A stretch of 64,000 bases of DNA from a virus, in IMG/VR virus record IMGVR_UViG_3300042450_000503, positions 1-64,000 of that record; one strand, 5' to 3'. Below are positions 1,703-55,428 of this stretch, one piece after another. A model generated the notes under the pieces. It did not search any database. It saw only the letters and a program-made list of their open reading frames with translations, and was not told the DNA's origin. Position 1 is the first letter of the stretch. The number at the start of each line of letters is the position of its first letter. The translations under genes and the position numbers were made by a program.

Positions 1703-3268
1703 TTAATAAGATGATTTAACAAAGTTTGATGATACTGAATATAATTCAGCATATTGCGGAGACAAAGGCGGCAATGGATTTTCAAAAATCATTGTTATGG
1801 TAGTATAAAACCCTTTAATACCATTCATTGATTGACCGTATATTATTTCCCCGTATGTTGGTAAAGTATTATTTATAATAGTACCAAAATATTTATTTTC
1901 TTTTCTTTTAAAATTATTTGTAAATAATTGGTTTTCTAAATCACCCAAGTTAAATGAATCAATAGTTTTGCTAATTGGTATTCCAATATCCGTGTTTGAA
2001 TATATGCTTTCTAATGCCCACCCGGTTGTACCTTCGTAATTAATAGTATTAAAGTTTTTCACAGCCGAAACCTCTGGATTGAAAACTAATGAAACAGATG
2101 AATTATATTGGGTAGTATAAAAATTACAATAATTAACTAAATCAATTACTGGATCTGCATAATGTTTCCAAATATTACCATTTTTAAATGTATAATAATT
2201 ATTTCTTAAACTGCCGGATAAATTGGGTTTATAAGAAAATCTACTAGTCCAACCTAATACATCTTCATCAAATGATAAGGTAGCATAATTCTCGGAATTG
2301 TAGGGCTGCATAGAAACAACATATTGTTTATTATGCATATCCCACCCTCCAATAATTTTACCAGCATTGCCTACATTAGATAAATTATCTCTAAAGTAAT
2401 CTATCATACCTATTGAAGATATTTCAGTTATACCATCTTGTGATAATCTCAATACTACATTTTGATTTCTATCTGTAAAGTATTTTCGATACCCATAAAT
2501 GGCAAAACTTTCAGGATTGGTACTTATGCCATAGTTACCAGCATATTGTTGAACCTGGCCAATTACTTGAGCTCCTGAAGTAGTCATTGGCTGACCCTCT
2601 GCGGAATAAATTGCATCTTTATCAATTAAGGCTCTACTTACTTTTAATTCTTGAAATATAATTAAGTTTGTGTCTTCTGCATATAATTTTTGTATTGAAC
2701 CAACCGAAGGATCAACACCTCTAGTTATATCTTCTCCAACAGAAAATTGATTTGTATTATTTACTCCCGTTCTAGAATTTAATACACCTGAATATATCAA
2801 TGTGCTTATTAAATGCTGCTGCTTAGAATCTGGCTCTATTAGGTAGGCCTTAACGCCAAGATCTACATCGGTATTATTATAACCTCCTTGTATTCTGGAC
2901 TCTTCAACAAACCAATCAGAAGACTGTTCAAAATAAGCATTAGGTATATATGTAAAATCAGCTATAGGCCCAAAAGTTAATACATTTAATACTGACGGAG
3001 CGCTATATTGTAATATTGATACCGGCTTATTTAAAGTTATGGTTGTACCATTTACATAGATAACTGAAGGCAACACATTTTCTGTTATACCTATCCACGA
3101 AACTAATTGCCCTACATTTATCTCTGGATTTGCGGTAGTTAATACTATAGTAGCACTGTTTGTAACATTTGCAGATAATGTGCTAACAGTATTAATTACA
3201 TCCACAATACTATCCAACTTTTTCAACCAAAATGAATTGAAATATTTTAATTCTAATGTTGCTGCCAT
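1703..3268 (-). CDS. Nozzle / tail tubular protein B-like structural protein
   Basis: 521 aa, beta-rich, with no signal peptide. Repeated aromatic/Gly strand motifs such as GGWDMHNKQYVVSMQP and TLSFDEDVLGWTSRFSYKP (about 305-345) are typical of the beta-propeller nozzle proteins of short-tailed phages. It lies directly downstream of the 1858-aa protein, whose N-terminus looks like the other half of the same family. The two may be a split version of one nozzle protein or two partner tail proteins. Role in the tail tip is inferred from motifs and gene order. Confidence 0.6.
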   Translation of the reverse strand: MAATLELKYFNSFWLKKLDSIVDVINTVSTLSANVTNSATIVLTTANPEINVGQLVSWIGITENVLPSVIYVNGTTITLNKPVSILQYSAPSVLNVLTFGPIADFTYIPNAYFEQSSDWFVEESRIQGGYNNTDVDLGVKAYLIEPDSKQQHLISTLIYSGVLNSRTGVNNTNQFSVGEDITRGVDPSVGSIQKLYAEDTNLIIFQELKVSRALIDKDAIYSAEGQPMTTSGAQVIGQVQQYAGNYGISTNPESFAIYGYRKYFTDRNQNVVLRLSQDGITEISSIGMIDYFRDNLSNVGNAGKIIGGWDMHNKQYVVSMQPYNSENYATLSFDEDVLGWTSRFSYKPNLSGSLRNNYYTFKNGNIWKHYADPVIDLVNYCNFYTTQYNSSVSLVFNPEVSAVKNFNTINYEGTTGWALESIYSNTDIGIPISKTIDSFNLGDLENQLFTNNFKRKENKYFGTIINNTLPTYGEIIYGQSMNGIKGFYTTITMIFENPLPPLSPQYAELYSVSSNFVKSSY

Positions 3269-3306
3269 AATTAATAATTACTTGTTTTTATTCTTTTTTA
3301 ACTTAT

Positions 3307-6300
3307 TTATAATGGTAATGTTGTAAATTCATAAGGAAAATATGCTCCATTAATATAACCAACGCTTTGCTCAATATAAAACAAAACATAATATTTAGTG
3401 TTAGGCAATAAGCCTGTTATTGTATAACTTTGTATTGTAGGACTATTTGTAATATTGTAAGAAGTTAAAGGATATATATCTTTGGTAGGCGTGGTGCAAT
3501 CAGTTGCCCATGTTAACCAGTATGATATTCCAACCCCATCTGCCGTAAACCAAACAGTTGCATCAGTTGTTGTAATATTACTTATATTTCTAATCCGTAA
3601 ATTACTGCCAAAAACATCATATGATCCAGATAATCTATATGTTATAAAAGGAACAGTATAATAAAATGGGCTTGCGTATCTAAAATCTCTATTATAACCT
3701 AATATAGTGCTAAGCCCGGGTAAAGTCACTACTGCTCCGGTGTTAGAAACTTTAGCAGAATTAAAAGCCATATAAAAAGCGTCAGTATTCAAGATATTTT
3801 GAGTAACCGGGAATGTTGAATTTTGAAAAGTATAAAATCTATTAGCTATAGGAGGCGCCCATAATGTTTGAAAACTAGAAGTTGTAAAAAATTGGTTTAC
3901 AAATGTAGCGTCTTTGCTTTGAACATATATATATTGATGAGGCTTCCAAGAAATAGAACTTGTTTGAAATGATTCTTTAAAAGTAAGAGTTGTTCCATTT
4001 GGAATAGTATTATTACTAGACAATGTTATTAAACTGCCCGCTGGATTCACATTAGTTATTTGAGTACTAGCATTTAACCATAATCCTTCCGCTAATAATC
4101 CATTAATAGATTCAGAAGTAGGTGCTATTGTAACGGAATTTGCGGATGGCTGCGTGCCAACAGATACTATTCCGGTTGATATAAAATTAAATCCAGTTGA
4201 AGGGTCCTGCGTTAAATAAGGTACGCCATTTGGATAATTAGTTAAAAATTCACTTAATCCAATTAAATATCTTTCTTTAGGAAAGAAAGGGCCATTGTAT
4301 AATGGTAAACCAACGCTTGGTGTTGGATATATTTTATTGTAATAATAATTTGCGTCTTCTACAACAGCGTATATACCTAATGCACCAGTAGTTCCTGGGT
4401 TGTTAACTCTTTTAATAGCAAAGCAATATTCCCCTGGAGTAGATACTCTTACAATTCCAGTAGTTGCTGCCGGTAAGGTAGAGTCACCATTACAATAAAC
4501 TTGTATTGCAGCATTCCAATCTGCAACAGTTGTTCCGGCGTTATTTGCGTCTTTAACTAATTGCCATGTGTTATTAGGCGCTTGACTAGATTGTCTATAA
4601 TAAATTAATAATCTAGCCTCAGCTTCAGCAGAGCCTTCATCAACTCCAGCAGCCTGTGATTGTAATTTAAACCGTAAACTTCCTTTTGTTAAGCCCGTAG
4701 GGCTTGGCAAGCTTGGAGGTATTGGATATATCCCCTGCGTTATATTTTGCCAAGATGGGTTTATAATCACGGCCCAGCCTCCACCCGCAATTAACCCGGG
4801 AGGCGTAGGTAATTCACTAACTAGATTAGTTGTTCTATCCCCTACATAAACAGCAAAAAAAGTGCCGCCTTCCCAATAATCACCTTGATTATCCCAATAT
4901 TCTAAATTAGTAGAAATTGTTTCAGGCCCAACTGTTATTGTAAATGAAACGGTATCTTCTAAAGTAGAATAATCAAGATCTATATTTATTAATGGAGATG
5001 GCGGGTTTGTAGCAAAGGACATAGCGTCCTGTACTTTAACAGAAATAGGATAAACCCCTAAAGGTATATTAGGATCAATTAAACTTAATACTCCAGTAGC
5101 AGCCGTTAAACTAAAATAATTCATATTATTTCCTGATAATATACTAAAATATAGTCCGTCTTGATCGTCAACTTGCGCGGGAATTGATTTATGAGCCCCG
5201 TTTGTAGCTGTTAATGTTACAATATTAGTAGCGTTTGCACTAATAACCCTATCATATTGAGAATCTGGCAATAAAAATTTTGGAGCAGCATTTTTAAGTC
5301 TACCTGTAAATTGTAATTGTGATGCAATACCTGAGTATGTTGCTAATATTTTAAAAGTAAAGGAACTTTCTGTAGGAGCATTAAAATTAAATAAAAAATC
5401 ATTTAAAATTTTAACTCTATAAGTCTTAGGTAAAGACCCCGCAACTAATGCAAATTTACTAACAAAATTAATAGGTATTGGGGCTGCATTATTGTAAACA
5501 GAAACTAATTGGATGCTATCTAATGTTAAAGCAATATTTGTATTATTTAATACATAGAATTCATCTGTTATATATGGAGAATCATCATATCCAGTATGAT
5601 CTGGATCAACATCTGAGCCAAGTGGATTTTGTGACTCTCTAAAATCAAATCCAACATCGCTAAGTTGAGAAGCTCCGTCAAAACCAGTATTTACGTCAAA
5701 ATTAAGATCTGATATATAACCAGTGCTTGCGGTTTCCCAAAATATATCTAATAATGATTCAACGGGTCGGGTTTCATATACGCTCAATGTAGGTAGCATG
5801 TTATCAGCAACCTCCCCAATTGATTTAGACGTAGAAACTCTTCCAATTAAAGGATTATTTTCTAATTGATAAAAATTTAATCCAGCAGTGCCTTTTATAT
5901 TATCTACTGTATTTTGTAAAAAATTAAGATCCGTTGCATACGCAATTGTATTAACCAAGTCAGCTTTTCTAACTGGATAATATTGAATATTTTCTGCTTT
6001 TGTTATTATAAAATCTTTCCATTCGCCACCTATAGCATTTGCATCTAATAAGACGTTAGGGGGTGTAAATTTTATTATGCCGGTATTTCCGGTAATATCT
6101 ATAGGATCTATTTCAATGGAACTTATAACCGTATTTTTAAACCAAGGATAAGGTAAAGATTGCCCTCCTGGAGGGGTTGGATTATTTACTGGTACGGCGG
6201 CCTGCACACATTGTATCCCATCTCCAACTTTTATAATTCTCATAAAATTTGCTACTTGACTTGAAATAGAAAATTTTATTGTATCGGCTGTATAATTAGT

Positions 6301-24584: not shown

Positions 24585-24841
24585 AGAACTACAACTATAT
24601 CACCTAGTTTTATAACATGATAAGTTTCCTTATCTATTTCAATTTTATGACCAGCATGTCGATCATAAAATATTTCATCATTTTTTTTAACCCCAACAAC
24701 TTCATCCCCAATTTCTAATACTTTAGCTTGTATATATCTAATATCTTCTCTTTGGTTTTCAGCAAGCATTAACCCACCTTTTGTTTTAGTGGTTCCCTCT
24801 TTTAATTTTTCTATAATTAGATTTCTACCTATTGCTTTCAT
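24581..24841 (-). CDS. groES: GroES co-chaperonin
   Basis: 86 aa, shorter than the 95-100 aa of bacterial GroES. It has the expected strands: IGRNLIIEKLKEGTTKTKGG with the mobile loop (KEGTTKTKGGLMLAE), the GDEV turn and the DIVVVL end. It overlaps the groEL start by one base. Together they would form a phage-encoded chaperonin for folding the capsid or the long fibre proteins. Confidence 0.9.
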   Translation of the reverse strand: MKAIGRNLIIEKLKEGTTKTKGGLMLAENQREDIRYIQAKVLEIGDEVVGVKKNDEIFYDRHAGHKIEIDKETYHVIKLGDIVVVL

Positions 24842-26385
24842 TATGCTCTCAAATTATTGATTACACAATCCGTTGACAATATTGTAGTTGCTACAGAGGC
24901 TGCATTTCTTAAAGCACTTTTTGTCACCAATAAAGGATCAATAATGCCTGCTTTAATCATATCCACAGTTTCCCCTGTTACAACATTAAGCCCATACCCT
25001 ATGCTTGATATAACTTTCATAGGCACTTCTTCAATGCCCGCATTATCTAATATAGTATTAAAAGGAGCTCTGATAGAATCTAACAATATCTCCTCACCTA
25101 TAGAAAACGTGTCTATATTATAAGAAGCGTTTAATAAAGCAATTCCTCCTCCAGGAACAATCCCTTCTTTTATTGCTGCTTTAGTTGCACAAATTGCATC
25201 TTCTATTCTATCAGCTTTTTCTTTTAATTCAATTTCTGAATTTGCACCAACTTTTACAATTGCTATTTTAGCCGATAGTCTTGCCAATCTTTTCTCTAAT
25301 TTAACTACAACGTGAGGTGGATTATTTTCAAGTAATGAATCTTTAATATCATTTATAATATTTAATATTTCATCTGATTGTTCCCCTACGTGAAGTATTG
25401 TTTCTTCATGAGATGTTATACTTTTAATGCAATTGCCTAAATGTTCAGGTTGAATTAAATCTAAATCATCTCCAAGATCCTCGTTTATAAGTGTAGCTCC
25501 TGTCAACAAAGCTAAATCATCAAAGATCTCTTTTTTATTAATACCATACATTGGAGCATTAATAACATTTATTTTTATATTACCTTTAGCTTTATTCATA
25601 GCTAATGCGGATAGTACTTGTTGTTCTAAATCGCCTATGATTAATAAAGGTTTATTATTTTTTATTACAAATTCTAATACCGATTGTATCTGTCTAATAG
25701 AATCTACCGGAGACTCTATTAATAATACTAATGGGTTATCTAGTTCAGCTGTTTTCTTTTGAGCATTGGTAATAAAGTGAGAATTTGTTAATCCCATATC
25801 ACATTGTACTCCCTCAACTATTTCTAAACTACAATCTGGATCTGATGAAGTTTCCATCATCACAATTCCGGTATTGCCTACCGATTTAAAAGCATCGCTA
25901 ACTAACTTACCTAATTCAGGATCATTATTAGTTGATATTGTTGCAATATTATTTAACATATTATCGTCTACAGTTATAGCCATATCTTCAAGATATTTTA
26001 TAACTTTTTCAACCGCTTTATTAATGCCTTCTTTAATTTTTCTAGCATTAGGGTCTTCTATATTATAAGCGTTCTTTAAAATAGAATGCGCTAATACAGT
26101 AGCGGTAGTAGTACCGTCTCCTGCTTCTCTAACTGTTTTTCTGGCAGCTTCTTTTAAAAGAGTAGCTCCCATATTTTCTACCGGGTCCAGTAAAATAACT
26201 GCATCCGCAACCGTTACTCCGTCCTTAGTTATTAGAGGTCTTCCTGAAGCGTCTTCTAAAAGAACACACTTGCCACTTGCCCCTAAGGTTGAACTAACCG
26301 CTTTGGTTAATTTTTCTATACCAATAAATACTTTATCGCTGGCTTCTTTACCGAAGCTTAGATTTTTGACTATAGCGTCTGACAT
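24841..26385 (-). CDS. groEL: GroEL chaperonin, phage-encoded
   Basis: 514 aa. Shows the ATP-binding AGDGTTTATVLAHSIL (about 88-103), ITKDGVTVA (about 53) and the late VPGGGIALLNAS nucleotide-site motif near 410. It is about 30 residues shorter than host GroEL and lacks the C-terminal GGM repeats (it ends STDCVINNLRA). Divergence and pairing with a short GroES indicate a dedicated phage chaperonin rather than a recent host copy. It is the second-longest reading frame in the 20-30 kb part. Confidence 0.93.
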   Translation of the reverse strand: MSDAIVKNLSFGKEASDKVFIGIEKLTKAVSSTLGASGKCVLLEDASGRPLITKDGVTVADAVILLDPVENMGATLLKEAARKTVREAGDGTTTATVLAHSILKNAYNIEDPNARKIKEGINKAVEKVIKYLEDMAITVDDNMLNNIATISTNNDPELGKLVSDAFKSVGNTGIVMMETSSDPDCSLEIVEGVQCDMGLTNSHFITNAQKKTAELDNPLVLLIESPVDSIRQIQSVLEFVIKNNKPLLIIGDLEQQVLSALAMNKAKGNIKINVINAPMYGINKKEIFDDLALLTGATLINEDLGDDLDLIQPEHLGNCIKSITSHEETILHVGEQSDEILNIINDIKDSLLENNPPHVVVKLEKRLARLSAKIAIVKVGANSEIELKEKADRIEDAICATKAAIKEGIVPGGGIALLNASYNIDTFSIGEEILLDSIRAPFNTILDNAGIEEVPMKVISSIGYGLNVVTGETVDMIKAGIIDPLLVTKSALRNAASVATTILSTDCVINNLRA

Positions 26386-33061: not shown

Positions 33062-33076
33062 AGTTATTTTTATTAG

Positions 33077-33148
33077 TTGCGGATTCAGGACTCGAACCTG
33101 GCTCTGGGGTTATGAGCCCCTTGTGCTACCAATTACACTAAACCGCGA
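33077..33148 (-). tRNA. tRNA-Met (anticodon CAT)
   Basis: On the minus strand the anticodon stem GGGG/CCCC encloses CTCATAA (anticodon CAT). The T-arm is CAGG-TTCGAGT-CCTG and the acceptor is GCGG/CCGC with imperfect end pairs. It sits at the head of the late block and could serve Met elongator or, if modified, Ile-AUA decoding. Confidence 0.85.
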
Positions 33149-37310: not shown

Positions 37311-37384
37311 AGTTAAGAGGAGTAATGGTAAACTCAGGCCGATCAGTGATGCCCGCAATGTAGGTTCGATTCCTACCTTAACTA
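37311..37384 (+). tRNA. tRNA-like gene with irregular anticodon stem
   Basis: Perfect 7-bp acceptor AGTTAAG/CTTAACT, D-stem GAGT/ACTC and 5-bp T-stem GTAGG/CCTAC around TTCGATT. The anticodon arm pairs only at three positions (GGC/GCC) with two mismatches next to the loop. At standard spacing the anticodon is CAG (Leu), but a Leu tRNA would need a long variable arm, which is absent. Either a divergent functional tRNA or one whose anticodon arm has been altered. Confidence 0.75.
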
Positions 37385-40489: not shown

Positions 40490-40560
40490 TGTCTTATGGT
40501 GTAACGGTAGCACTAATCACTTTGACTGATTCAGTTTAGGTTCGAATCCTTATAAGACAA
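40490..40560 (+). tRNA. tRNA-Gln (anticodon TTG)
   Basis: Acceptor TGTCTTA/TAAGACA, D-arm with AACGGTA loop, anticodon stem AATCA/TGATT around CTTTGAC (anticodon TTG), T-loop TTCGAAT with one mismatch in its stem. 71 nt, no encoded CCA. Confidence 0.88.
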
Positions 40561-40582
40561 CTAACAATTAAATTTAATAACT

Positions 40583-40819
40583 ATGACTAATGTAAACTTA
40601 GTGGAAACACTAACGGTTGATAGTAGCGCTATCTTTGAAGTTGCTTACTATCCTAATGTCGAAAGACTATTTGTACTGTTTAAAAACGGTAAAGAGTATG
40701 AGTACTTCAATGTGCCAACTCACGTAATGAATGGTTTAAGAGAAGCCTCATCTAAAGGTAAATTCTTAAACAAATATATCTTAGCTTTCTACAGATTTAA
40801 GAAAGTTATTACGGTATAA
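40583..40819 (+). CDS. KTSC-domain protein
   Basis: 78 aa. Matches the KTSC domain: VDSSAIFEVAYYPNVERLFV, FKNGKEYEYFNVPTHVMNGL and FLNKYILAFYRFKK. This domain occurs in small phage and bacterial proteins; its biochemical role is not established, though an RNA- or lysyl-tRNA-synthetase-associated role has been suggested. It sits between tRNA-Gln and the large RNA locus, which fits an RNA-linked role but does not prove it. Confidence 0.8.
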   Translation: MTNVNLVETLTVDSSAIFEVAYYPNVERLFVLFKNGKEYEYFNVPTHVMNGLREASSKGKFLNKYILAFYRFKKVITV

Positions 40820-40830
40820 TTGCTATACAC

Positions 40831-41573
40831 GGTTGTCCTGCTGATCCGATCGGTAAGGTAGCGTAGAGGCCGTGTTATTTACAATTGTCTCACATGAGTG
40901 GTATAGAGGTTGTAACGCAGGAAACAGTGCGTAATGCTGAATGCGGGATTGGGGTGACCCCGGTCGCGACTCAGGGAGCAGTGAGTTCGTTAAATAAGAA
41001 CTGTTCAAAATGTTAATCACTCGGGGTTGTGTGAAGTTATACCAGGCTTAGCTAGCTGGTTGCAACCGAAATATGGGATAAAGAAAATAACCGGTCCTCG
41101 GATTAACAAAGAACTAAGTGCTGGGCTAAATGGATCTGTTTCAGTCTCCGGGCATTGTCACGGCCGACGGGTTAAGGGGTTCGATTCCCCTTTTAGTTCC
41201 TAATAGCTAAGCTGTGTAAAGCACCAGATCTGATAAACTGTGTGAAGCTATAGGTTAAACATTGAATACCTTATCACGGCGGGAATCTATTGAGGAACGG
41301 GTGATAAAAGATACTATCAGTAATGGTAGATGTGTTGTTCCCTTGAGAAAGGAATACAGGTGGGTAGATGAAATAAGCTATCAGAACTGCAGATAAAGAT
41401 GCGGACTGCACAACACAAATGAGTTCTCAGCAAGTAGTTAAAGAACCGTTGTATTACACCTTAATTGGTAGTAATCAACAAACGTCATATTAACTACGCG
41501 ACCCTAATCATTAAGTGAGCAGCGAGGGCTAACTTGCAAGGCTATAATGATGGGTGCTAAAAAAATTAAATAT
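40831..41573 (+). ncRNA. Large structured non-coding RNA locus (GOLLD/ROOL-like candidate)
   Basis: No gene-length ORF in about 740 bp. My hand count of 40861-41520 gives about 43% G+C, against roughly a third in the flanking genes. Many stems are visible: CGCA/TGCG (40917-40932), GGGG/CCCC (40951-40961), AGTTC/GAACT (40984-41002) nested in AGTGA/TCACT, ACCAG/CTGGT (41041-41060), TTATCAC/GTGATAA (41271-41307), TTCC/GGAA (41338-41353) and a closing stem ATCATTA/TAATGAT extended by ACCC/GGGT (41500-41563). GTGTGAAG recurs at 41029 and 41239. A tRNA-like acceptor plus T-arm is enclosed at 41112-41199. Size, phage context, tRNA neighbours and an enclosed tRNA-like part fit giant phage RNAs such as GOLLD or ROOL; family membership is inference. 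Confidence 0.6.
41112..41199 (+). tRNA. tRNA-like element inside the large RNA
   Basis: AACTAAG pairs with TTTAGTT, and AGGGG-TTCGATT-CCCCT is a perfect T-arm directly before it. The 50 nt between do not fold into a clear D-arm and anticodon arm, and the total of 88 nt is long. A tRNA-like module or a decayed tRNA is more likely than a standard one; no anticodon can be assigned. Confidence 0.45.
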
Positions 41574-41574
41574 T

Positions 41575-41727
41575 ATGAGCAGAACAGTAAAACAAGCGTA
41601 TAGAAAATCAAGAGTATTTGATAAAACATGCAGAAATAATGGAGCATGCTCTTATTGTAGAGACAATCGTTTACATAAGCATAATAAGAAATTAATTGCT
41701 TACAGTCTTGATACGATTAAAGAATGA
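41575..41727 (+). CDS. 50-aa zinc-knuckle-like protein
   Basis: 50 aa beginning MSRTVKQAYRKSRVFDKTCR. Cys spacing CRNNGACSYCRDN, followed by two His, suggests a zinc-binding knuckle; the rest is basic. It starts 12 bp after the large RNA's closing stem. The last 9 codons overlap promoter copy 12. Confidence 0.55.
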   Translation: MSRTVKQAYRKSRVFDKTCRNNGACSYCRDNRLHKHNKKLIAYSLDTIKE

Positions 41728-53559: not shown

Positions 53560-55428
53560 ATGAGTTTAACATTAGACAAGCAGATTTTAAGTGATATTAC
53601 AGTATACACTAAATATGCTAAATATTTACCCGCTAAGGAAAGAAGAGAGACTTGGCGGGAATTAGTAACCAGGAATATGGAAATGCACATTGCTAAGTTT
53701 CCTGAAATGAAAGAATCAATAACAGCCATATATGAAAATTTTGTATTCACTAAAAAAGTTTTACCTTCGATGCGAAGCTTACAGTTTGGTGGTAAAGCTA
53801 TTGAGCTTAATAATGCTCGCATTTATAACTGTGCTTTCCTACCTGTTGATAGTATTCATAGTTTTTCTGAGACTATGTTTTTATTGCTTGGAGGTACTGG
53901 CGTTGGTTATTCGGTCCAACAACATCAAATTGATAAACTACCTGAGATTAGAAAACCTAATTACGATCGTAAGAAGAAGTATGTCGTGCAAGACAGTATT
54001 ATAGGTTGGGCAGATGCGGTTAAAACTTTATTCAAATCCTATACAGGAGCAATGACTTCTCATATTGAGTTTGATTTATCTGACATAAGACAGAAAGGCG
54101 CATTGCTTGTAACGGCAGGAGGTAAAGCGCCGGGGCCAGAGCCTTTGCGTATAGCATTAGTAAAGATTGAAGCAATTCTTAGAACAAAAGAAGATAGATC
54201 TAAACTTACAGATATTGAGTGTCACGATATTCAGTGTCATATTGCCGATGCCGTTTTAGCTGGTGGTATACGTAGAGCAGCAATGATTTCATTGTTTGAC
54301 CTTGATAGTAATGCAATGTTAAATTGTAAAGCAGGAAATTGGTGGGAAGATAATCCGCAAAGAGGTAGATCAAATAATTCAGTAGTACTTTTAAGACATA
54401 AAATTGATAAAAAAACATTTGACAAAGTTTGGGAACGTATTGAGGCTTCTGGATCGGGCGAGCCAGGCATTTACCTTACTAATGATAAAGATTGGGGCAC
54501 TAATCCTTGTTGTGAGATTGCTTTACGTCCTTATCAGTTCTGTAATTTAACAGAGATTAATATGTCTGATATTGAGGATCAAGAGGACTTTAATGCAAGA
54601 GCGTCGGCCGCATCATTCTTAGGAACGTTGCAAGCATCGTATTCAGATTTCCATTACTTACGTGATATATGGAGAAAAAACACAGAAAAAGACGCGTTGC
54701 TTGGAGTATCAATGACAGGCATTGCATCAGAATCAAACTTAAAACTAAACTATGAAGAAGCAGCACAAACTGTTAAGGAAACAAATAATATTATTGCAGC
54801 GGCTCTTAATATCAACAAAGCGGCCAGAACCACCGCAGTTAAGCCGGCCGGAACGACTAGCCTTGTACTTGGCACTTCTAGCGGTATTCACGCTTGGCAT
54901 AATGACTATTATATTCGCCGTATGCGCTTAGGTAAGAATGAAGCAATCTATTCTTATCTTGCAATAAATCATCCAGAATTGATTGAAGACGAATATTTTA
55001 ATCCAACATTACAGTCAGTCATATCTGTGCCACAAAAGGCTCCAAATGGCGCTATAACACGATACGAGTCAACATTAGATGCGCTTGAAAGAGTAAAGCT
55101 AATATCTAAAGATTGGGTTAAGCCTGGTCACATTAAAGGTAACAACACGCATAATGTTTCGTGTACAGTTTCTGTAAGAGACGATGAATGGAAAATTGTT
55201 GGCGAGTGGATGTGGGCAAATAAAGAATACTATAACGGATTATCTGTTTTACCATATCATGGCGGTACATATAAGCAAACGCCGTTTGAGGATTGTACTA
55301 AGGAAGTATACGAACAAATGATGCTAACATTAAAAGACGTTGATCTATCTAAGGTAATTGAAATACAAGATAATACTAATTTTGGTGAGTCAGTTGCCTG
55401 TGGACCAGGTGGTTGCGAAATAACATAG
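53560..55428 (+). CDS. nrdJ: Class II (B12-dependent) ribonucleotide reductase
   Basis: 622 aa, monomeric adenosylcobalamin type. PSMRSLQFGG, then ARIYNCAFLPVDSIHSFSET and FLLLGGTGVGYSVQ form the N-terminal part; NPCCEIALRPYQFCNLTEIN carries the radical Cys region; PAGTTSLVLGTSSGIHAWHN is the phosphate-binding loop; THNVSCTVSVRDDEW holds the partner Cys; and the end ACGPGGCEIT has the redox Cys pair. Reduces ribonucleotides without oxygen using B12. Shorter than the roughly 740-aa bacterial form. The host must supply cobalamin. Confidence 0.9.
   Translation: MSLTLDKQILSDITVYTKYAKYLPAKERRETWRELVTRNMEMHIAKFPEMKESITAIYENFVFTKKVLPSMRSLQFGGKAIELNNARIYNCAFLPVDSIHSFSETMFLLLGGTGVGYSVQQHQIDKLPEIRKPNYDRKKKYVVQDSIIGWADAVKTLFKSYTGAMTSHIEFDLSDIRQKGALLVTAGGKAPGPEPLRIALVKIEAILRTKEDRSKLTDIECHDIQCHIADAVLAGGIRRAAMISLFDLDSNAMLNCKAGNWWEDNPQRGRSNNSVVLLRHKIDKKTFDKVWERIEASGSGEPGIYLTNDKDWGTNPCCEIALRPYQFCNLTEINMSDIEDQEDFNARASAASFLGTLQASYSDFHYLRDIWRKNTEKDALLGVSMTGIASESNLKLNYEEAAQTVKETNNIIAAALNINKAARTTAVKPAGTTSLVLGTSSGIHAWHNDYYIRRMRLGKNEAIYSYLAINHPELIEDEYFNPTLQSVISVPQKAPNGAITRYESTLDALERVKLISKDWVKPGHIKGNNTHNVSCTVSVRDDEWKIVGEWMWANKEYYNGLSVLPYHGGTYKQTPFEDCTKEVYEQMMLTLKDVDLSKVIEIQDNTNFGESVACGPGGCEIT

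Follow-up and report, generated by a model that had tools for sequence, protein, structure and literature searches.

We found that positions 40820-41574 on the plus strand of the window (the whole 64,000-nucleotide stretch of DNA analyzed here, part of a virus record of 66,478 bases) form a structured-RNA locus in two parts. Judged by sequence comparison, the 3' part (41204-41560) belongs to a new structured-RNA family, which we call the core RNA. The 5' part (40820-41200) is an array of modules ending in a tRNA-like element that lacks a normal anticodon arm. The reading we favor, at a probability of roughly 0.45, is that the core RNA is transcribed and trimmed together with stable RNAs and combines a scaffold core like that of GOLLD or ROOL RNA with exchangeable recognition arms. 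An initial annotation had described a large structured phage RNA locus with a tRNA-like module in a setting like that of GOLLD and ROOL, and this description was borne out, although its terms "giant" and "enclosing" are less certain.

The locus has no conserved gene and lies downstream of tRNA-Gln and a KTSC-domain gene

The closest relatives of the phage's large terminase are from an uncultured podovirus (63% identity) and from Flavobacterium and Cellulophaga phages. Elsewhere the window carries a phage-encoded GroEL-like chaperonin (24841-26385, Pfam), a protein resembling ribonucleotide reductase as judged by eye (53560-55428), tRNA-Met (33076-33147), and another tRNA called by Rfam only (37311-37384). 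Two genes precede the locus, as the initial annotation had stated:

40490..40561, plus strand: tRNA-Gln (UUG), called by ARAGORN and by Rfam RF00005 (59 bits)
40583..40819, plus strand: KTSC-domain protein gene (Pfam PF13619, E 7e-16)

The annotation had also counted about 740 bp with no gene and noted raised G+C, and both observations held. The gap spans 755 bases from the KTSC stop (40819) to the next ATG (41575), and no open reading frame (ORF) between them exceeds 65 amino acids. ORFs within homologues are short and not conserved; conserved ORFs, which the annotation had named as evidence against an RNA, were seen neither at the locus nor in its homologues. The G+C content is 46.5% in 40801-41200 and 38% in 41201-41600, compared with about 33% in the surroundings. 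The folding-energy z score was -1.9 over the entire locus, with values of -0.9 in its 5' half and -1.6 in its 3' half. Because folding energy by itself is weak, we built the case on comparative evidence.

The core RNA belongs to a family found in diverse phages

By scanning with short patterns taken from the window's 3' half of the locus, we identified the family at no fewer than about 110 IMG/VR loci and in Cellulophaga phage phi14:2. By blastn, we found a 31-base exact match to phi14:2 (Crassvirales), with further matching blocks around it in the same order. A covariance model (R1), made from a separate alignment of 40 members with the window left out, finds the window with 105.4 bits (E 5e-20) at 41308-41440. 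From P1 to its end the core RNA is 218 to 523 nt long (median, 321; window, 305). Many phages have it on its own, directly after the end of a protein gene (phi14:2, L008, L119). One contig (IMGVR_UViG_3300035670_000037) holds two copies about 20 kb apart (L009 and L099). In phi14:2 (KC821624.1), the core RNA lies at about 2908-3360; three small minus-strand "hypothetical proteins" (gp007-gp009, 3106-3431) overlie it and are probably annotation artifacts.

An exact 20-mer from the core RNA did not occur in the genomes of 84,980 bacterial and archaeal species, and plasmids gave no match to the RNA. A relaxed pattern identified one contig of a Sphingobacteriales metagenome-assembled genome (MAG), L148; its genes resemble those of the window's phage, and it is therefore probably a phage contig. 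Another relaxed-pattern match, L149, lies inside a coding gene and was set aside as chance. R1 found no core RNA in an elemo phage, crAss001, cr108_1, ProJPt-Bp1, or phi19:3; a match in ctfjg026 (E 0.009) sits in a coding gene and was rejected.

When the whole window was compared with Rfam (4,227 families), only three ordinary tRNAs were found. The locus alone, at E values up to 10, gave nothing significant (best E, 1.3), and 20 other member loci gave nothing beyond tRNA, tmRNA, and a single plastid match below the cut-off. At L041:5748-5808 there is a match to freshwater-1 RNA (RF02979; 50 bits, cut-off 72 bits, E 1.4e-8). We found no description of the core RNA in the literature searched, outside which most subscription journals lay. 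The initial annotation had offered two possibilities, membership in the GOLLD/ROOL class or a new class of similar scale. The Rfam result speaks against the former, and a covarying family that is absent from Rfam and recognizes the window at 105.4 bits bears out the latter.

Covariation supports a shared core structure

We assigned the following elements to the core RNA; pairing percentages are from the alignments of members.

41204..41560, plus strand: core RNA, P0 to P8, containing the R1 match
41204..41250, plus strand: P0, optional 5' hairpin TAGCT/AGCTA, common to about 10 members
41252..41271, plus strand: P1 hairpin, AGGT-(TAAACATTGAAT)-ACCT, 72% paired as aligned (85 members)
41271..41307, plus strand: P2, TTATCAC/GTGATAA, with a variable tip (cassette V2)
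41314..41329, plus strand: P3, CTATC-AGTAAT-GGTAG, 99.5% of cells paired, double changes at 5 of 5 pairs
41332..41416, plus strand: P4, GTGTTG/CAACAC, around P5 and V5, 98.8% paired
41338..41354, plus strand: P5, 95% paired
41355..41410, plus strand: cassette V5, inside P4
41344..41429, plus strand: pseudoknot, P5 loop TGAGAA (41344-41349) with TTCTCA (41424-41429), 97.5% paired, almost invariant
41434..41497, plus strand: P6, GTAGTTA/TAACTAC, with cassette V6, 96% paired
41502..41554, plus strand: P7, CCC-TA-ATCATTA/TAATGAT-GGG, with cassette V7; strands covary in relatives
41429..41558, plus strand: P8, AGCA (41429-41432) with TGCT (41555-41558), 97% paired, nearly invariant

Across 85 nonredundant members, standard pairs fill 86 to 98% of cells in P2-P8. 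P1 in the members has an AGGU stem and the loop UAAACAUUGAAU, and the most frequent form of P2 in other members is TGTAAAT/ATTTACA. At one P4 position, G-C, C-G, A-U, and U-A all occur. We compared P3, P4, P5, and the pseudoknot in the 40 members, without the window, with shuffled alignments. Of 838 cells, 97.9% were paired, versus 83.5% in shuffles; double-changed cells numbered 81 versus 11.9, and the covariation score was 0.356 versus 0.089. None of 500 shuffles matched the real alignment on any measure, and sliding the partner strand reduced pairing to 35 to 50%. Covarying stems were a check that the initial annotation had named, and we regard the covariation in the alignment over P3-P5 as decisive.

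The pseudoknot and P8 are almost invariant and therefore count as compatible with the alignment, without covariation support; the invariance of the pseudoknot strand is partly ascertainment, because the TTCTCAGCAAGTAG strand served as search bait. We regard the conserved core, with P1, P3, P4, P5, P6, P7, and P8, as probably pseudoknotted. The ATCATTA/TAATGAT stem, which had been taken to close the whole locus, is present (41507-41513 with 41545-41551) and instead forms part of helix P7 of the 3' RNA.

Some members carry an insert of about 400 to 660 nt inside the core RNA (L009:6617-7414, L083:3662-4299, and L092:10546-11101, and also L093 and L004). The inserts of L009, L083, and L092 contain an HNH-endonuclease-like ORF and terminate in a second, diverged copy of P3-P4-P5, while those of L093 and L004 contain no endonuclease. 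In L009 and L083, the insert splits the most conserved strand, after ACACAAATGAGTTCT and before GAGTTCTCAGCAAG or AAGTTCTCAGCAAG. Rfam gave no group I or group II intron match at the endonuclease-bearing loci. The insert looks like a homing element or an unrecognized intron.

Peripheral arms are shared singly between members

Four peripheral regions (the P2 tip, the hairpin after P5, the P6 tip, and the P7 tip) cannot be aligned between most members, and single arms are nearly identical between members whose other arms differ. In 44 pairs of members, identity reaches 95% or more in one arm and stays below 60% in two or more of the others; for 25 of these pairs, less than 150 bp is common to the flanks, taken as 3 kb to either side. 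The V5 arm of the window matches its counterpart in L026 at 100% identity and that in L076 at 98%, and its V7 arm matches those of L054, L057, and L116 at 98%. The window's remaining arms are unrelated to the arms of these matches. L054 and L057, which come from related phages, have kilobases of flank and one arm in common but not the other arms. From these alignments, arm sharing is best read as recombination at the conserved core that swaps arms. We know of no other RNA family that evolves by cassette exchange at the level of arms.

Self-complementary 6-mers showed no excess in arm loops; self-kissing arms, one route to cage assembly, are therefore unsupported. Direct pairing of one arm with another also seems unlikely, because the arms are exchanged independently. 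In L142, a lone P6-type hairpin cassette (stem TAGTTAAT..ATTAACTA) lies 40 to 110 nt past the tRNA-like element and is followed by a tRNA, and from this locus arms may move on their own.

The 5' part is a modular array ending in a tRNA-like element

The 5' part contains the following elements.

40820..40830, plus strand: TTGCTATACAC, kept right after the KTSC stop in relatives, whichever module follows
40827..40875, plus strand: module A, stem ACACGG/CCGTGT (ACACAA/TTGTGT in L143)
40916..40942, plus strand: module B, hairpin CGCA-GGAAACAG-TGCG and tail (CGTG/CACG in relatives)
40945..40965, plus strand: module C, GGGATTGGGGTGACCCCGGTC hairpin
40968..41005, plus strand: module D, GACTCAGGGAGCAGTGAGTTC hairpin and tail
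41012..41107, plus strand: module E, closing stem GTTAATC/GATTAAC, inner stem, and hairpin with loop ATAAAGNANNTAACCGG; several stems altered on both sides in relatives
41111..41200, plus strand: tRNA-like element, acceptor GAACTAA/TTAGTTC, T-arm AAGGGG-TTCGATT-CCCCTT

Compensatory changes in the 5' modules were judged by eye, without statistics. We found the tRNA-like pattern and the modules in about 16 other virus records, mostly of 48 to 68 kb, that resemble the window's phage group; a further pattern match, L140, is G+C-rich coding-like DNA and was regarded as chance. A KTSC-like gene also lies 5' of the array in L064, L136, L138, L142, L143, and L146, and TTGCTATACAC might be a promoter or processing signal. 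Modules A, B, C, D, E, X, Y, Z, and W precede the tRNA-like element in varying subsets. A repeat of GTGTGAAG reported by the initial annotation is indeed present, but its copies fall in two unrelated modules and are incidental; at these sites relatives have GCGTGAA or CTAGAAG.

The T-arm and 7-bp acceptor that the annotation had pointed out are real and are retained in the approximately 16 relatives, where CCGACGGGUU and the T-arm are invariant by construction because those letters were the search pattern. In L064 and L138, the acceptor changes from GAACUAA/UUAGUUC to GAACUAG/CUAGUUC. The element also has a D-like arm (GTG/CAC) with a variable insert of 14 to 52 nt, followed by CCGACGGGTT. Neither ARAGORN nor RF00005 called it. 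Like tmRNA (RF00023), it ends in an acceptor stem and a T-arm without a normal anticodon arm. In contrast to tmRNA, only its T-arm matches the model (13 to 15 bits, in relatives), and the L146 contig has a real tmRNA (77 bits) in addition. The window's record gave no match to the tmRNA model, and neither a full-length match nor a tag reading frame was found. We therefore rejected a permuted or diverged tmRNA. The bacterial Y RNA YrlA (RF02553) is another modular RNA with a tRNA-mimic domain; its match at the locus (16 bits, E 3.6, cut-off 69 bits) was regarded as chance.

The array and the core RNA occur together only in the window, L063, and L064, and most relatives lack the core RNA. Modules W, Y, and Z are common to tRNA-like arrays without the core RNA and to core RNA loci without the tRNA-like element. 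Because the halves occur separately, we favor two neighboring RNAs over a single 740-nt molecule.

The core RNA is linked to tRNA and tmRNA genes

Members have 40 tRNA and tmRNA genes no more than 1.5 kb away, all of them on the strand of the core RNA, and the density of such genes is 0.176 per kb near the core RNA versus 0.084 per kb in the rest of the loci. A tmRNA starts 5 to 200 nt downstream of the core RNA end in 12 of 85 members, and no tmRNA was found farther than 1.5 kb away on these loci. The tmRNAs of L014, L036, and L054 were confirmed as real by Rfam. With laxer detection, tRNAs end 5 to 10 nt before P1 in L019, L040, L079, and L122. Same-strand linkage, doubled density, and adjoining tmRNAs suggest that the core RNA is probably part of a stable-RNA transcript.

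In L005/L006, about 280 nt before the core motif, and in L144, after P0, tRNA-Leu-like genes with long inserts lie immediately 5' of the core RNA or replace it. ARAGORN calls the one in L005 only when introns are allowed.

Models for the function of the locus

In the model we favor, the core RNA would be transcribed within the phage tRNA/tmRNA (stable-RNA) transcript, trimmed out, and act in trans. The core may work as a scaffold, by analogy with GOLLD and ROOL, and the four hypervariable arms would be recognition surfaces that phages swap by recombining at the conserved core. The 5' half would be a second, modular structured RNA of the phage group, most likely on the same transcript, and it may recruit tRNA-processing enzymes to define its own ends and those of the core RNA. 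Somewhat more tentatively, we propose that the RNA is combinatorial, with a fixed pseudoknotted core and with arms and upstream modules, including the tRNA-like element, shuffled as units.

The main rivals are an anti-defense decoy and an accessory to tmRNA or translation. As a decoy, the RNA would imitate, with its arms, RNAs that host systems (tRNA nucleases or RNA-antitoxin systems) target or use as antitoxins, rapid arm exchange would reflect an arms race, and the core would merely stabilize the molecule. A fixed core whose single arms pass between otherwise unrelated phages fits this idea, as does a tRNA-like element that has no normal anticodon arm. It has been proposed (PMC10264068) that phage tRNAs, which neighbor the core RNA, serve to evade tRNA-targeting defenses. 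No arm, however, was matched to a host RNA or toxin target, and so elaborate and invariant a core would be superfluous; we consider a decoy unlikely, if a serious contender. An accessory RNA would work with the adjoining tmRNA and tRNAs, for instance, where ribosomes have stalled or as tRNAs mature late in infection. The tmRNAs just downstream in 12 of 85 members and nowhere else on these loci, and the Rfam-verified tmRNAs of L014, L036, and L054, argue for it. Most members, including the window, have no nearby tmRNA, a conserved ribosomal partner poorly fits hypervariable arms, and a shared stable-RNA operon may alone account for the linkage. We consider the accessory role less probable than the decoy. 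We are more doubtful still that the locus acts only in cis, as a regulatory or packaging sequence or a series of terminator and processing sites, with no trans-acting RNA: it is intergenic, modular, and often flanked by tRNAs, but the sequence and helices of the core stay constant although gene context varies between phages, and a core of about 320 nt with a pseudoknot exceeds what a terminator would call for.

GOLLD has a conserved 3' domain and a variable 5' part, with tRNAs sometimes in the linker (PMC12286853). The core RNA could thus be the conserved 3' domain of a diverged GOLLD, with the 5' modules and tRNA-like element as variable 5' domain and linker. Like GOLLD (RF02032), the core RNA is phage borne, noncoding, and near tRNAs, and the conserved 3' part and less conserved 5' part of the locus are similar to GOLLD by analogy only. 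In contrast, the core RNA is about 320 nt long, versus 833 nt for the solved GOLLD, and its arms are exchanged as cassettes. The GOLLD model (cut-off 150 bits) matched neither the core RNA in about 100 records nor the window at E values up to 10. Moreover, two contigs carry GOLLD in addition to the core RNA and apart from it: the match in L108 (103 bits) lies about 1.3 kb 5' of the core motif, and that on the contig of L085 (250 bits) lies about 1.5 kb downstream. This co-occurrence contradicts both a diverged GOLLD and the membership first suggested. We consider a diverged GOLLD very improbable. ROOL (RF03087) is likewise a large ornate RNA of phages and prophages by tRNA islands; the core RNA differs in that, apart from a single phage-like MAG contig, we found it on virus records alone. 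The ROOL model (cut-off 99.1 bits) gave no match in the window or in 50 records, the latter searched without a positive control. Hardly credible is a small conserved peptide gene (MSSQQVV...) in the region of highest conservation. The sequence ATG AGT TCT CAG CAA GTA GTT occurs in 67 of 85 members, but the ATG is missing in the other 18, the lengths range from 8 to 48 amino acids (median, 13), nothing is conserved beyond residue 7, and P6, P8, and the pseudoknot use these bases for pairing.

The family is missing from Rfam 15 and spans podovirus-like phages of about 66 kb, Crassvirales, and contigs of more than 300 kb. With phi14:2 as a cultured representative, the role of large ornate phage RNAs becomes testable in a laboratory phage. 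The close linkage to tmRNA is a functional lead, and the arms form a natural library for finding what they recognize. Cassette exchange of RNA arms would be an unexpected mode of RNA evolution. If the combinatorial reading is correct, a pool shared between unrelated phages would provide every phage with an individual set of RNA recognition surfaces.
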